A DNA stretch of 64,000 bases from Sporosarcina sp. Te-1 (GTDB lineage Bacteria > Bacillota > Bacilli > Bacillales_A > Planococcaceae): assembly GCF_017498505.1 (NCBI RefSeq), contig NZ_CP071798.1:930001-994000 (forward strand), read 5' to 3'. Made by a program: the position numbers and the translations under genes. Shown here piece after piece: positions 4,895-9,283 of this stretch. The notes beneath the pieces are model-generated. The model saw only the letters and a program-made list of their open reading frames with translations, did not search any database and was not told the DNA's origin. Position 1 is the first letter of the stretch. Every line of letters begins with the position of its first letter.

Positions 4895-5161
4895 TCAATT
4901 GCCCAAAACCAAACCATACCGATGTGCTAGTCTCTGCGCCAGTACACTGTTTTCCTTCTCAATTTCTTTGATTAATGCATATACTTCTTCTTGTAGTGTT
5001 TCAACCAACTCTATCTCTCGCTTGGGTACTTTAACAGTTACATATCCTTCCAGGGAAAAATCAACCTTAAATCTTGTAAAGCTCGTTTCGATATCATTCA
5101 AAAGCATTCTCCGACCGAATGTCTTCGATGAAACGTAGACTTCCAGTTCATCATCTTCCAA
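4895..5161 (-). CDS. small acidic protein of unknown function downstream of a Cro-like regulator
   Basis: An 88-residue protein, no family recognised. It begins with a TTG codon preceded by AGGGGG, starts MEDDELEVYVSSK, has a predicted beta-rich first half and an amphipathic, charged helix (ELVETLQEEVYALIKEIEKEN) in the second half that could dimerise. No membrane segment. It is the second gene after the small XRE regulator on the same strand, and a copy of the switch operator lies on a possible promoter directly in front of it, so it is probably controlled by the neighbouring repressor. Coding status is supported by the start site and context, not by homology. Confidence 0.6.
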   Translation of the reverse strand: MEDDELEVYVSSKTFGRRMLLNDIETSFTRFKVDFSLEGYVTVKVPKREIELVETLQEEVYALIKEIEKENSVLAQRLAHRYGLVLGN

Positions 5162-5175
5162 CTTTTATACCCCCT

Positions 5176-5204
5176 ATTCTAATTTAACTGTTAGTTAAAT
5201 ATTA
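5176..5204 (-). promoter_or_regulatory. operator O1 overlapping a possible promoter of the 88-residue gene
   Basis: The palindrome TTAACTGTTAGTTAA occupies 5184-5198. On the minus strand it fills the 17 bp spacer between a poor -35 (TAATAT, 5199-5204) and a good -10 (TAGAAT, 5176-5181). The same TTAAC-N5-GTTAA palindrome recurs in front of both regulators at 5434-5448 and 5509-5523. Confidence 0.6.
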
Positions 5205-5393
5205 AATTAAAAAAATTTCATCTGGCGTCTTATCTAAAATCTTTGCAATTTTAACTGCCATTTCATAAGAGAGACCTCTCTTGCCATTTTCAATCATCCA
5301 ATATGCTTGAAGAGTAATCCCTAATCTAGTTGCCATATCCTGATAGGAAAGACCCCGTTTAGTTCTTATAATTTGCAAGTTCTGTAAATTCAT
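5202..5393 (-). CDS. Cro-like XRE-family helix-turn-helix regulator
   Basis: A 63-residue protein that is almost entirely one lambda-repressor-type HTH domain: LGITLQAYWMIENGKRGLS covers the turn and recognition helix, and KILDKTPDEIFL is the usual closing helix. The ATG at 5393 is preferred over the in-frame GTG at 5402 because AAGGGGTGGG leaves proper spacing only for the former. It is transcribed divergently from the CI-like gene, with operators on both promoters, as Cro is opposite CI in temperate phages and ICEs. Likely DNA-binding switch protein; regulatory sign is inferred. Confidence 0.8.
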   Translation of the reverse strand: MNLQNLQIIRTKRGLSYQDMATRLGITLQAYWMIENGKRGLSYEMAVKIAKILDKTPDEIFLI

Positions 5394-5425
5394 TACGCCC
5401 ACCCCTTCAGATAAGTGTTAAATAT

Positions 5426-5454
5426 ATCCTATTTTAACCATGAGTTAAAGTCAA
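5426..5454 (-). promoter_or_regulatory. promoter of the Cro-like gene with operator O2 in the spacer
   Basis: Minus strand: TTGACT (5449-5454), exactly 17 bp spacer, TAGGAT (5426-5431). The palindrome TTAACCATGAGTTAA (5434-5448) lies wholly within the spacer, so a bound repressor would exclude RNA polymerase. Confidence 0.75.
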
Positions 5455-5496
5455 TAATATTGCTGTACTTATTTTCTAATTAGTTAAATGAATGAT

Positions 5497-5529
5497 TTTA
5501 CATGTAATTTAACGATTTGTTAAATTACA
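5497..5529 (+). promoter_or_regulatory. promoter of the CI-like gene with operator O3
   Basis: Plus strand: TTTACA (5497-5502), 17 bp, TTAAAT (5520-5525). The operator TTAACGATTTGTTAA (5509-5523) is embedded in a larger perfect inverted repeat with 11 bp arms, TGTAATTTAAC and GTTAAATTACA (5503-5529), covering the spacer and -10. This suggests autoregulation of the repressor; O3 has the longest symmetry of the three sites. Confidence 0.7.
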
Positions 5530-5551
5530 ATATATCTTATGAGGTGATGAT

Positions 5552-5962
5552 ATGCTGGGCCAACGGTTAAAAAAACTACGATTAGATAGAAAACTAACGC
5601 AGAAGCAACTTGCCGAGAAAATTAAAGTTACACATGTATCTATATCTGGTTACGAAAACGGCAATCGCTATCCTGATACAGATACGCTGCAAAGATTAGC
5701 CGATTATTTTGATGTTTCTACGGACTATCTTCTTGGCCGTTCCAATCTAACTAATACAGTTCCTGTAGCCGGACAGGAAATTATACTCTCTCCAGAAGAG
5801 CTTTTACTCTTTAACGAACTGAAAAAACACCCAACAATGCTTTATGATTTAGCATCAGATCCTGAAAAGAAAGTGAAGGAGCTTATCAAGTTGTATAAGA
5901 TGAAGCAGATTTTATTAGAAGAAGAGGAAGATGGAGAAGGGGTTCGAGAGAAAAAGGATTAG
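5552..5962 (+). CDS. CI-like XRE-family repressor
   Basis: A 136-residue protein with an N-terminal HTH_3 domain (about residues 3-62): QLAEKIKVTHVSISGYENG is the HTH, and RLADYFDVSTDYLLGRS closes the domain as in the SinR/Xre/ImmR group. The rest is helical and ends in a very acidic-basic tail (EEEEDGEGVREKKD); there is no LexA-type peptidase segment. GAGGTGAT precedes the ATG by 5 bases. Divergent from the Cro-like gene with operators between them, so likely the maintenance repressor of a mobile-element switch. No integrase or excisionase is present nearby. Confidence 0.85.
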   Translation: MLGQRLKKLRLDRKLTQKQLAEKIKVTHVSISGYENGNRYPDTDTLQRLADYFDVSTDYLLGRSNLTNTVPVAGQEIILSPEELLLFNELKKHPTMLYDLASDPEKKVKELIKLYKMKQILLEEEEDGEGVREKKD

Positions 5963-5985
5963 TATTTTTAACAAATATAAAATAA

Positions 5986-6257
5986 TATGTTGTCTCTAAT
6001 ACGACCTCTGACAATAAAATTGCAGTTGTTAAAGAAAGATTATTTTCGTATATTCTTAAAACCGACAATAGAAAAACATTAATGTTAACATTTATTGCAC
6101 CAGATCATAGATTCTCGAGCGCAGCTACATTGACGCAAAAGAAAAAGCATGGCATGCAATGGACGACCCTTTGAGGGCATACAAATTTGTCCATGCAGGC
6201 AATGCTGACTTTTACAGCCCAGAATCTGACCAGCTTGAAAAAACTCTAAAAAATGAT
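5986..6257 (+). pseudogene. decayed protein-coding fragment, unknown family
   Basis: Directly after the CI-like gene two plus-strand frames look coding but are disconnected. Frame one (5986-6171) reads sensibly up to about KTLMLTFIAPDH near 6104 and frame two (6111-6254) continues with a protein-like stretch containing AWHAMDDPLRAYKFVHAG; a frameshift near 6105-6112 would join them. There is no start codon with a Shine-Dalgarno and the second frame soon ends. I do not recognise the family. Best read as a remnant of the element that brought the switch. Confidence 0.5.
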
Positions 6258-6373
6258 TTCGTTTTCTTTTCTCTACAATTTTCGATCACCTGACCACCAA
6301 AAACTTAGTGGTTAGGACCAATTGGTTCCCTATATTTGGTGATTTGCTCTATCCACATAAGAACAGATTGTTT

Positions 6374-6979: not shown

Positions 6980-9283
6980 TCAAAGATGCCTTGATCCGCT
7001 TTTCCCTTCCTCTTTACGCGCCAGTTCCTCGAGCAGTCCAATTACACGCCTCTTCCCTGACTTCACACCCGCCTCCTGAGCTCCGATACAAACCGGACAA
7101 CCTGCTTCACAACGGCAAGACGAAACATGTTTGGCTGCTAGTTCCAGCAATTCATCCCATCGATCAAACAGTTTTTCACTCAGACCGATGCCTCCAGGAT
7201 AACTGTCGTAAATGAAAAACGTCGGTTTCCCTGTATGAGTCGCTTTCACTTGCGGGACGACATGAATGTCCGTTCTGTCGCACCTGACGAAAATCGGAAT
7301 AAACGAATGGATCGCTTGGGCAGCGCCAGTCATGGCATCTGTCAAATCGGATTCTTTCCATCCTTCTGGTGCGTCGAACGATAGCCATGTCGATGAAGTG
7401 TGAAGTTCCTCTGCCGGCAATGAGATGGGACCGGAACCGATGTTGTCGTGGGTGTCAAAACGAATCTTTTTGAAAATAGTCGGGATGGCAAGCACGGCGA
7501 TATCCCCGTAGGAAGTCACCAGTTCACCGGCCGCTTCGGTTTTATCCTCATTCATCACTTTCAATTCAACCGCCAAATTAGCATCCGTGAAATAATCGAC
7601 ATCTACTTCGGTCACGTAAGCCTTTTTTTCCTCCCAATCCAGTTTCTCTACTTGATACTGGGTCCCCTGGTGAATATAAATCGCTTCTTCATGGAGCAAC
7701 GTCATTGCGCTGTAGCGATCCATCTCGCCGATCACCTTTGTCCCTTTCGGCACCGTCTTATCGATGATAATGACGTTTTCTTGGGAAGCGGAACGGAGAC
7801 TGATTTCACTTGCAGGAAAGCGGTCGGTCATCCAATGCCATTTATCAGATGTCCGGACAAGAATCCCTTCGCTCTCCAAAAATCCTAGCAGTTCCTGCAC
7901 TTCGAATTCACCATATGTTTCTGTCGAGGAGAACGGAAGTTCAAATGAGGCGCATTTCAAGTGATCAATCAAGATAAGCATGTTGTCCGGATGGATAAGT
8001 GCTTCCTCTGGCGTCTGGCCGAGGAGATAGTCCGGGTGATCGATGATGTACTGATCGAGTGCAATGGACTGGGCGACATAAATGATCAACGCATCGTCCT
8101 GCCTTCTACCTGCACGCCCTGCTTGTTGGAAGGCGCTCGCGATATTCCCCGGGTATCCGGTCATAATACACGCCTGCAATTGGCCGATATCAATACCAAG
8201 CTCCAGTGCGTTCGTGCTAACAACTGTTCGAATATCCCCGTTGCGCAGCCCTTTTTCGATTTTTCGCCGTTCAGACGGCAAATAGCCGCCTCGGTAGCCC
8301 ATCACCGTTTCGTCGAACAGTTTTTTCTTCGTCAATTCCTTCATATAGGTGACGAGCATTTCGACCCGCACCCTGCTTTTGGCGAAAATGATCGTTTGGA
8401 TGCCTTCTCTGTATAAGAAGCCACCCAGATCCCTTACTTCCAAAACGGCACTTCTTCGGATTCCGAACGTCGGATGGATGACTGGCGGATTATAGAATAC
8501 AAAGTGTTTCGTTCCTGCAGGTGCTCCATTATTCGCAATGAGCTCCATCGGACTATTTGTCAACGCTTCCGCCAGTTCTTTCGGATTAGCTATCGTAGCC
8601 GATGTGCAAATGAAAACAGGGTCAGCTCCATAATAATTGCAAATCCGTTTCAAACGGCGGAGTACATGCGCGACATGGCTCCCGAACACACCTTTATATG
8701 TGTGCAATTCATCAATGACGATATACTTCAAGTTTTCAAAGAGAGAAACCCACTTCGTATGGTGCGGCAGAATGCCTGAATGGAGCATGTCCGGATTGGT
8801 CAAGACGATATGTCCGGATTTTCGCACCTTGGTCCGTAAGCCGGGAGCTGTGTCTCCGTCGAAGGTGTAACTTAGGATAGTTTCTCCGCTCGCTTCAATT
8901 AATGAATGTAGTTCTGCTAATTGGTCTTGTGCCAACGCTTTTGTCGGGAACAGATAAAGCGCCCTTGATGCTTCATCCTCCAAAATGCTTTGGAGCACCG
9001 GCAAATGATAGCACAAGGATTTGCCGGAAGCGGTTGGCGTGACGGCGGTGATCGAGCGACCGCCAGCAGCCAGATCGAACGCTTCCCTCTGATGGCTATA
9101 CAATTTCCGAATGCCTCTTGTTTCGAGTGCTTTTACGATAGAAGGATGCAGGTCCCCCGGAAATTCCGCATAGGTTGCATCTTTCCCTTCAATCGCTCGG
9201 TAGTGGATGATATTCTCGGCAAATGACGGATCTTTCCTCAAGTCTTCTATTACATCTCGAATTGTCCTGTGATCCGTCTTCAT
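6980..9283 (-). CDS. mrfA: MrfA (YprA), DEAD/H-box helicase of the mitomycin repair pathway
   Basis: A 767-residue superfamily 2 helicase. Motif I is TPTASGKS (82-89), motif II is DELHTYKG, motif III TSATI, and QAGRAGRR is motif VI. The C-terminal DUF1998/MZB region holds four cysteines in CRCEAGCPVC, a zinc site characteristic of MrfA. In B. subtilis it unwinds DNA so that the MrfB exonuclease can remove mitomycin adducts. The helicase start overlaps the stop of yppE by 4 bp (ATGA), so they are translationally coupled. MrfB is normally encoded immediately downstream, but here a 3 kb insert intervenes. Confidence 0.92.
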   Translation of the reverse strand: MKTDHRTIRDVIEDLRKDPSFAENIIHYRAIEGKDATYAEFPGDLHPSIVKALETRGIRKLYSHQREAFDLAAGGRSITAVTPTASGKSLCYHLPVLQSILEDEASRALYLFPTKALAQDQLAELHSLIEASGETILSYTFDGDTAPGLRTKVRKSGHIVLTNPDMLHSGILPHHTKWVSLFENLKYIVIDELHTYKGVFGSHVAHVLRRLKRICNYYGADPVFICTSATIANPKELAEALTNSPMELIANNGAPAGTKHFVFYNPPVIHPTFGIRRSAVLEVRDLGGFLYREGIQTIIFAKSRVRVEMLVTYMKELTKKKLFDETVMGYRGGYLPSERRKIEKGLRNGDIRTVVSTNALELGIDIGQLQACIMTGYPGNIASAFQQAGRAGRRQDDALIIYVAQSIALDQYIIDHPDYLLGQTPEEALIHPDNMLILIDHLKCASFELPFSSTETYGEFEVQELLGFLESEGILVRTSDKWHWMTDRFPASEISLRSASQENVIIIDKTVPKGTKVIGEMDRYSAMTLLHEEAIYIHQGTQYQVEKLDWEEKKAYVTEVDVDYFTDANLAVELKVMNEDKTEAAGELVTSYGDIAVLAIPTIFKKIRFDTHDNIGSGPISLPAEELHTSSTWLSFDAPEGWKESDLTDAMTGAAQAIHSFIPIFVRCDRTDIHVVPQVKATHTGKPTFFIYDSYPGGIGLSEKLFDRWDELLELAAKHVSSCRCEAGCPVCIGAQEAGVKSGKRRVIGLLEELARKEEGKSGSRHL

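Follow-up and report, generated by a model that had tools for sequence, protein, structure and literature searches.

In the chromosome of Sporosarcina sp. Te-1, between two genes that we take to be yprA and yprB, we identified a CI/Cro-type module of three genes that is probably the immunity region of a former prophage from a group of Bacillales phages, left behind at this place and, as sequence comparison would suggest, kept functional. The window, by which we mean the whole stretch of 64,000 nucleotides that was analysed, covers positions 930001-994000 of this one-contig genome (4,297,762 bases), and the names yprA/YprA and yprB/YprB, as well as GpsB and RlmL used below, are presumed ones. 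The module is a very small natural switch of about 1.1 kb, apparently intact and with no SOS, ImmA or antirepressor input adjoining it, and is common to two species, which both have it in the gap between yprA and yprB but lack the remainder of the phage there. Its design is ordinary for phages; its place and its conservation are mildly unusual.

The repressor pair and the third gene

The three genes of the module, in coordinates of the window, are:

5552..5962, forward strand: CI-like repressor, 136 residues, with an N-terminal helix-turn-helix (HTH) (Pfam HTH_3, 1.2e-17; PHROG 8, 5.9e-28)
5202..5393, reverse strand: Cro-like HTH protein, 63 residues (Pfam HTH_3, 8.9e-14)
4895..5161, reverse strand: gene of an 88-residue protein, TTG start, no recognised family, the first gene past cro

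The CI-like and Cro-like genes are thus divergent reading frames that both encode HTH_3 domains. For the Cro-like protein, we prefer the ATG at 5393 over the GTG at 5402 as the start codon because, in our reading, a GGGGTGG motif precedes the ATG. The initial annotation had described the CI-like protein as free of a LexA-type cleavage domain, which agrees with its Pfam matches up to an E-value of 1: these comprise 7 families, HTH types plus a weak LysM, with no LexA/S24-type domain among them.

Predicted operators and promoters

The regulatory sites of the module, in the order in which they are met from the CI-like gene, are:

5508..5524: O1, predicted operator over the -10 of the CI promoter, within a palindrome with 11-bp arms (5503-5529)
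5497..5526, forward strand: CI promoter, TTTACA with TAAATT (18 bp, promoter scan) or TTAAAT (17 bp, read from the sequence)
5472..5488: O2, half-site TTTAAC-TAATT between the CI and cro promoters
5433..5449: O3, predicted operator inside the cro promoter spacer
5426..5454, reverse strand: cro promoter, TTGACT (5454-5449), 17 bp, TAGGAT (5431-5426), with O3 inside the spacer
5406..5422: O4, decayed operator in the cro leader, with one perfect half and mismatches at 3 of 12 arm positions
5183..5199: O5, predicted operator TTTAAC-N5-GTTAAA, 3 bases past the cro stop codon
5176..5181, reverse strand: TAGAAT, proposed -10 of the 88-residue gene, doubtful

At the level of sequence, the shared operators overlap both promoters, O1 that of CI and O3 that of cro. 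The pattern search returned TTAAC-N5-GTTAA three times in the window, at 5184-5198, 5434-5448 and 5509-5523, which are exactly the occurrences reported before, while dinucleotide shuffles of the window contain 0.07 such sites on average and none of 100 reaches three; with one mismatch allowed, the pattern occurs at 5 places as compared to 1.59 expected. The promoter scan likewise recovers the operator within the 17-bp spacer between TTGACT and TAGGAT, as first described for cro, and the 11-bp arms of the palindrome proposed over the CI -10 can be read from the sequence at 5503-5513 and 5519-5529.

The separate promoter that the initial annotation had placed around O5 for the 88-residue gene found no support. 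The counterpart of its TAGAAT in S. luteola is TAGTTG, so that the -10 is not conserved, and its -35 partner is weak (TTAATA at 18 bp, 9 of 12 matches, from a scan that finds 11 such sites as compared to 6.5 in shuffles). Further, L140, a relative of the module in a prophage, shows by our own reading a ribosome-binding site directly behind the operator, which leaves no space for a separate promoter. For these reasons, we favour a role of O5 as a putative distal operator that would resemble OD of TP901-1.

In the whole 4.30 Mb genome, the exact 15-mer TTAAC-N5-GTTAA has 7 copies, and the longer 17-bp form TTTAAC-N5-GTTAAA has 3, all of them in the module. Two of the four 15-mers outside the module fall within long open reading frames, which we take from their sequences to be ffh-like (L004) and TldD/PmbA-like (L007); the third lies ∼50 bp upstream of another small HTH frame (L005), and the fourth overlaps the 3′ end of a histidine-kinase-like frame, ∼37 bp before an ABC-ATPase-like one (L006). 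The stretch before the small HTH frame (L005 1440-1580, G000:C1 about 2151393) contains TTAAC-type repeats that are perhaps an operator of its own.

The initial annotation had proposed looking for the same operator elsewhere in the genome as a sign of a regulon. One alternative is that the repressor pair controls a wider regulon in the chromosome, or that the unit is toxin-antitoxin-like with the 88-residue protein as the toxin. It would fit the operator in front of the 88-residue gene and the likeness of both HTH proteins to antitoxin HTH families, which stays below cut-off in NCBIfam. We nevertheless consider it highly improbable, with the full 17-bp operator having no further exact copy in the genome and the 88-residue protein reaching no curated cut-off in Pfam or NCBIfam (best match in PHROGs, E-value of 0.047). 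With up to 2 mismatches, the 17-bp operator matches 231 places in the genome, below the 584 for a reversed control pattern.

Relatives in phages and viral contigs

Pairs of such operators 45-75 bp apart were found in 3 of 250 genomes of the family, those of the window, of S. luteola and of a member of another genus (G175), where a cro-like and an antirepressor-like gene come after the pair; the same three genomes are the only ones of 261 to carry the string TTGACTTTAAC-N5-GTTAAA. Among viral contigs, at least 120 stretches carry a pair at this distance. As these stretches were fetched by the operator pattern, the pair on its own proves nothing, and the evidence lies solely in the neighbouring genes and in additional sites. 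A CI relative lies within 900 bp in 65 of the 120 listed stretches and both CI and Cro in 60, as compared to means of 15.8 (maximum 26) and 11.8 (maximum 20) for random positions in the same stretches (200 draws). The 60 stretches with both genes contain 50 distinct central 90-mers, and 29 of them show a further exact operator past cro. In the other 55 listed stretches no CI relative could be detected in the vicinity, and these may reflect chance or other repressors. Relatedness of the CI protein by itself does not predict such operators: 16 of the best 45 non-redundant CI-relative loci listed have no exact upstream site, including Sporosarcina loci with CI proteins up to 61% identical, and some of these siteless loci show other repeats.

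One of the close viral relatives is found in a contig of 39,094 bp (L149), whose CI is 71% identical to that of the window over its length and whose Cro is 84% identical; the Cro-like proteins of the window and S. luteola are 82-84% identical. Its operators start at -43, -118, -145 and -367 from the CI start, and those of the window at -43, -118 and -368. When 25 chosen loci were scored against TTTAAC-N5-GTTAAA, a layout of five positions emerged. Numbered along the cro strand, with the start of CI as origin, these are O1 near +28, O2 at +61 to +73, O3 at +91 to +103, O4 at +118 to +130 and O5 at +342 to +353 in the six loci of the T type. In the window and in S. luteola (L010), O1, O3 and O5 are perfect, O2 has 3 and 4 mismatches and O4 has 3 and 4 of 12, respectively. 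In the viral contigs of this type, O4 is perfect or almost so: L149 has perfect O1, O3 and O4 and one mismatch in O5; L147 and L129 have perfect O1, O3, O4 and O5 and one mismatch in O2; and L140/L199, a single locus, has perfect O1, O3 and O5, one mismatch in O4 and two in O2. A counterpart of the half-site O2 with a perfect left half is present in L010, L149 and L140/L199.

These comparisons bear on two parts of the earlier description. The module as a CI/Cro-type unit is upheld, as far as sequence can tell, by the pair of HTH_3 proteins and by sites at matching distances in viral contigs; its completeness with three operators is not, since the layout of the relatives has five positions, and two of the corresponding sites here are a half-site and a decayed one. 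As the viral contigs and Geobacillus phage GBSV1 share the layout, this Bacillales phage group usually has a predicted operator within the spacer of its cro promoter.

In further contigs with a similar layout the outer base is not T; GTTAAC and CTTAAC are frequent, and some contigs are mixed. The outer base pair thus varies between TTTAAC, GTTAAC, CTTAAC and ATTAAC among the 25 chosen loci and may mark separate immunity groups; a division into clean operator classes by this base was suggestive but was set aside, as several of these loci mix ATTAAC, GTTAAC and TTTAAC. The gene past O5 varies as well, encoding the 88-residue protein in the window, a 62-residue frame in L149, a 63-residue frame in L129 and L147 (without a match in Pfam) and a Bro-N/KilAC antirepressor in L140. 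The comparison suggests a modular phage design, in which the operator positions are fixed and both the outer base and the gene past the distal operator can change. In L129, a frame of 577 residues (7250-8983), ATPase-like by eye, adjoins the CI-like gene and is possibly, as a guess, a defence gene.

Chromosomal place and history

Window and S. luteola can be aligned across the module, starting at the stop codon of CI, and in two further pieces toward yprB, and the S. luteola copy has all three perfect operators. We surveyed the yprA-yprB region in 30 Sporosarcina loci, taken from 30 of the 68 genomes that have a YprB match. In 22 of these loci yprA ends within 1.5 kb upstream of yprB, and in 21 within about 170 bases. 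In two genomes, G011 and G288, stretches of 7.3 and 7.4 kb from this place contain nothing that matches the module; the gap between yprA and yprB in these genomes (L223 and L222) holds instead a DUF5673-like gene, which matches the DUF5673 gene of the window, and a membrane-protein gene that is presumably amj-like. Each has a CI relative elsewhere in the genome (56-57%). Since these two genomes do without it, the module is dispensable, and its absence there implies either presence in a common ancestor followed by loss in G011 and G288, or transfer.

Judged by YprA and a RecU-like gene, the window is nearer to G011 and G288 than to S. luteola, with synonymous distances (dS) from the window of 0.69 and 0.69 as compared to 1.28 for YprA, and of 0.43 and 0.44 as compared to 0.59 for the RecU-like gene, the G288 genes in this comparison being partial. 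YprB gives no separation (0.93 and 0.86, as compared to 0.89). The synonymous distances between the copies of the module fit ancestral presence and loss in G011 and G288, but come from one genome pair and are not decisive.

Conservation and selection

All selection tests compare one genome pair, the window and S. luteola. The ratio of non-synonymous to synonymous change (dN/dS) is 0.106 for CI, 0.252 for Cro and 0.178 for the 88-residue gene, at synonymous distances of 0.72, 0.40 and 0.87, as compared to 0.89, 1.28, 0.82 and 0.61 for the YprB, YprA, GpsB and RlmL genes. Fisher tests on rounded counts of synonymous and non-synonymous change show a departure from neutrality for all three, giving 5.6e-16 for CI, 1.4e-3 for Cro and 1.3e-8 for the 88-residue gene, whose TTG start and frame are conserved. 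The sequence of the CI promoter is identical in the two species, and in the CI-cro intergenic region the differences fall at 0 of 24 positions in operator arms, 1 of 10 in spacers and 15 of 122 in the rest; with O5 included, 0 of 36 arm positions differ, with a chance of 0.009 at the background rate. For CI, 41 of 88.8 synonymous sites have changed, which differs from the intergenic rest at p = 4.9e-8. One gap of the pairwise alignment falls within the A-run beside the O5 arm. Coding and regulatory DNA thus appear to diverge as under purifying selection, and the low dN/dS may in part date from the time of the module in the phage.

Against a functional module speaks the decay of O4 in both chromosomal copies. 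This decay, together with adjoining stretches that hold short open fragments alone and the lack of the module in G011 and G288, would suit an inert prophage relic that is slowly decaying and has no present function. Such a relic is nonetheless improbable, given three frames open in two species with dN/dS between 0.11 and 0.25 at high synonymous divergence, and intergenic DNA that is far more conserved than synonymous sites. The stretch between the CI and DUF5673 genes (5963-6373), with its short open fragments, is perhaps a gene remnant.

The pattern of conservation also bears on what the module may be kept for. Compatible with a retained immunity region is the possibility, which we view as somewhat doubtful, that it serves as a superinfection-immunity island, in which CI represses phages with the same operators, such as that of L149, and cro and the 88-residue gene are passengers. 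The operators of L149 are of the same TTTAAC-N5-GTTAAA type, the HTH stretch of its CI is nearly identical by eye, and the dN/dS of CI is the lowest of the three genes. On the other hand, Cro and the 88-residue gene likewise show the pattern of purifying selection, and the arms of O3 and O5, needless for passengers, are unchanged. In addition, the exact longer pair at 60-90 bp is matched in 3 viral contigs alone, and hence any immunity conferred by CI would be narrow.

The 88-residue protein

With the protein as query, 2 of 101 genomes proved to carry the 88-residue gene, and with an alignment 2 of 261, the genome of the window included. Searches with the protein returned no match in phages and, among solved structures, 4 matches, all with E-values of 0.15 or worse; an AlphaFold2 model from two sequences was set aside for its mean pLDDT of 52. 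A weak relative is encoded on a plasmid of Bacillus carboniphilus (33% over 67 residues, E-value of 8e-7). No match came from scans of viral contigs, whether the query was the 88-residue protein, a three-row alignment or the B. carboniphilus relative, and this relative returned solely itself from phages and plasmids. The DNA of the module has no match in plasmids.

The B. carboniphilus plasmid (NZ_CP129014.1; L045/L047) is phage-like and carries an AimR gene near a CI-type gene, which is followed by an HTH gene, Bro-N, Rha, the distant relative of the 88-residue protein and replication genes. We rejected it as a model of the module, with no exact TTAAC-N5-GTTAA in the two stretches read and a CI and Cro that by eye are unlike those of the module.

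A proposed model of the switch and its trigger

In the mechanism that we propose, CI would bind O1 and O3 as well as O5, with the half-site O2 between the promoters, and shut the cro promoter, so that cro and the 88-residue gene would be silent. Cro would bind the same sites and shut the CI promoter, giving two heritable states, and O5 past cro would act as a distal operator that tightens the repression of the cro-88 transcript. Switching, with a CI that lacks a cleavage domain and neither an antirepressor nor an ImmA gene adjacent, would probably be spontaneous and rare, or triggered externally, e.g., by an antirepressor that a related phage brings into the cell.

That the module had no ImmA protease was already part of the initial annotation, and none of the 7 Peptidase_M78 (ImmA-type) matches in the genome of the window lies near it (at 935 kb). 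Such proteases are present elsewhere in the genomes of both the window and S. luteola, and one may act in trans. The genome of the window has no match to a Bro-N antirepressor, and S. luteola has one, on another contig. In the neighbourhoods of related CI genes, an antirepressor is present in L140 and GBSV1, and in GBSV1 a metallo-protease, ImmA-like in our reading, adjoins CI.

Two further loci combine a CI relative with such a protease. One (G000:C1 715817-717429) holds a second, more distant CI relative (42%) with a Peptidase_M78 match with one stop codon nearby and is possibly another prophage remnant; the other, in S. luteola (G017:C13 91738-92817), holds a second CI relative of that genome (57%) with one stop codon beside a Peptidase_M78 match, perhaps a broken repressor with its protease.

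Beyond mere retention, the host may have adopted the module as a stand-alone epigenetic switch, i.e., the three-gene unit of CI, Cro and the 88-residue protein may have been selected as a bistable device after the loss of the phage, with the new-family 88-residue protein as its only known output, expressed by a minority of cells without an SOS or protease trigger; we put this forward tentatively and think it rather unlikely. Through the module, one could cleanly test what makes a host retain a CI/Cro pair, be it bistability, superinfection immunity or a small effector.

Comparison with known systems

The lambda CI repressor carries a cleavable C-terminal domain, whereas none was found on the CI-like protein described here. 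As in lambda, where CI and Cro are described as repressing each other through operators (OR1-OR3) shared over two divergent promoters (PMC10448788), the module has shared predicted operators over two divergent promoters and would work by mutual repression.

The nearest functional precedents are DicA/DicC-DicB of Escherichia coli and CI-MOR of TP901-1 and phi13. In the former, the cryptic prophage Qin has retained CI-like and Cro-like repressors together with a small protein (PMC10448788, PMC6832061), as the module appears to have done. Spontaneous switching on is reported for 1.16% of the colonies of a dicBF deletion strain, and for 1.02% without recA (PMC10448788), which makes DicA/DicC a precedent for spontaneous, recA-independent switching, and the antirepressor Rem can also flip the switch (PMC10448788, PMC6832061). 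In contrast to Qin, only three genes are left in the module, the host is Gram-positive and its genome has no Bro-N antirepressor; when compared with the NCBIfam model of DicA, the CI-like protein reaches 44.5 bits, short of the cut-off of 101.

CI-MOR of TP901-1 and phi13 is described as two divergent repressors within about 1 kb, with three CI operators (OR, OL and OD) and further sites between the promoters, and the CI of TP901-1 is reported to have no detectable peptidase domain and seems not to autocleave (PMC7250872, PMC8516035). The module likewise has two divergent repressors, and its predicted sites past the second repressor gene (O5) and between the promoters (O2) may correspond to OD and to the further sites. 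The half-sites differ, being AGTTCAYR as given for phi13 and TTTAAC in the module. The Cro-like protein also sets the two apart: although structures of MOR exist (PMC11149083), none is among its 6 matches to solved structures (PDB) up to an E-value of 0.01.

In the literature, we found nothing on prophage repressors of Sporosarcina, nothing on the combination of Cro-like protein, antirepressor and divergent promoters in Bacillus and, by title or opening of the abstract, nothing on this module among the listed work on domesticated lysogeny modules; an earlier description of the module may nonetheless exist.

Among named phages, GBSV1 (NC_008376.2) shares with the module a CI relative (69% over 45 residues), a DNA match in the cro region and three features of the layout, namely operators within the spacer of the cro promoter and in the cro leader and a half-site separating the two promoters. 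It differs in its operators, which are of the GTTAAC-N5-GTTAAC kind, in its cro spacer of 18 bp, and in a record annotated with a metallo-protease, an integrase and antirepressors.
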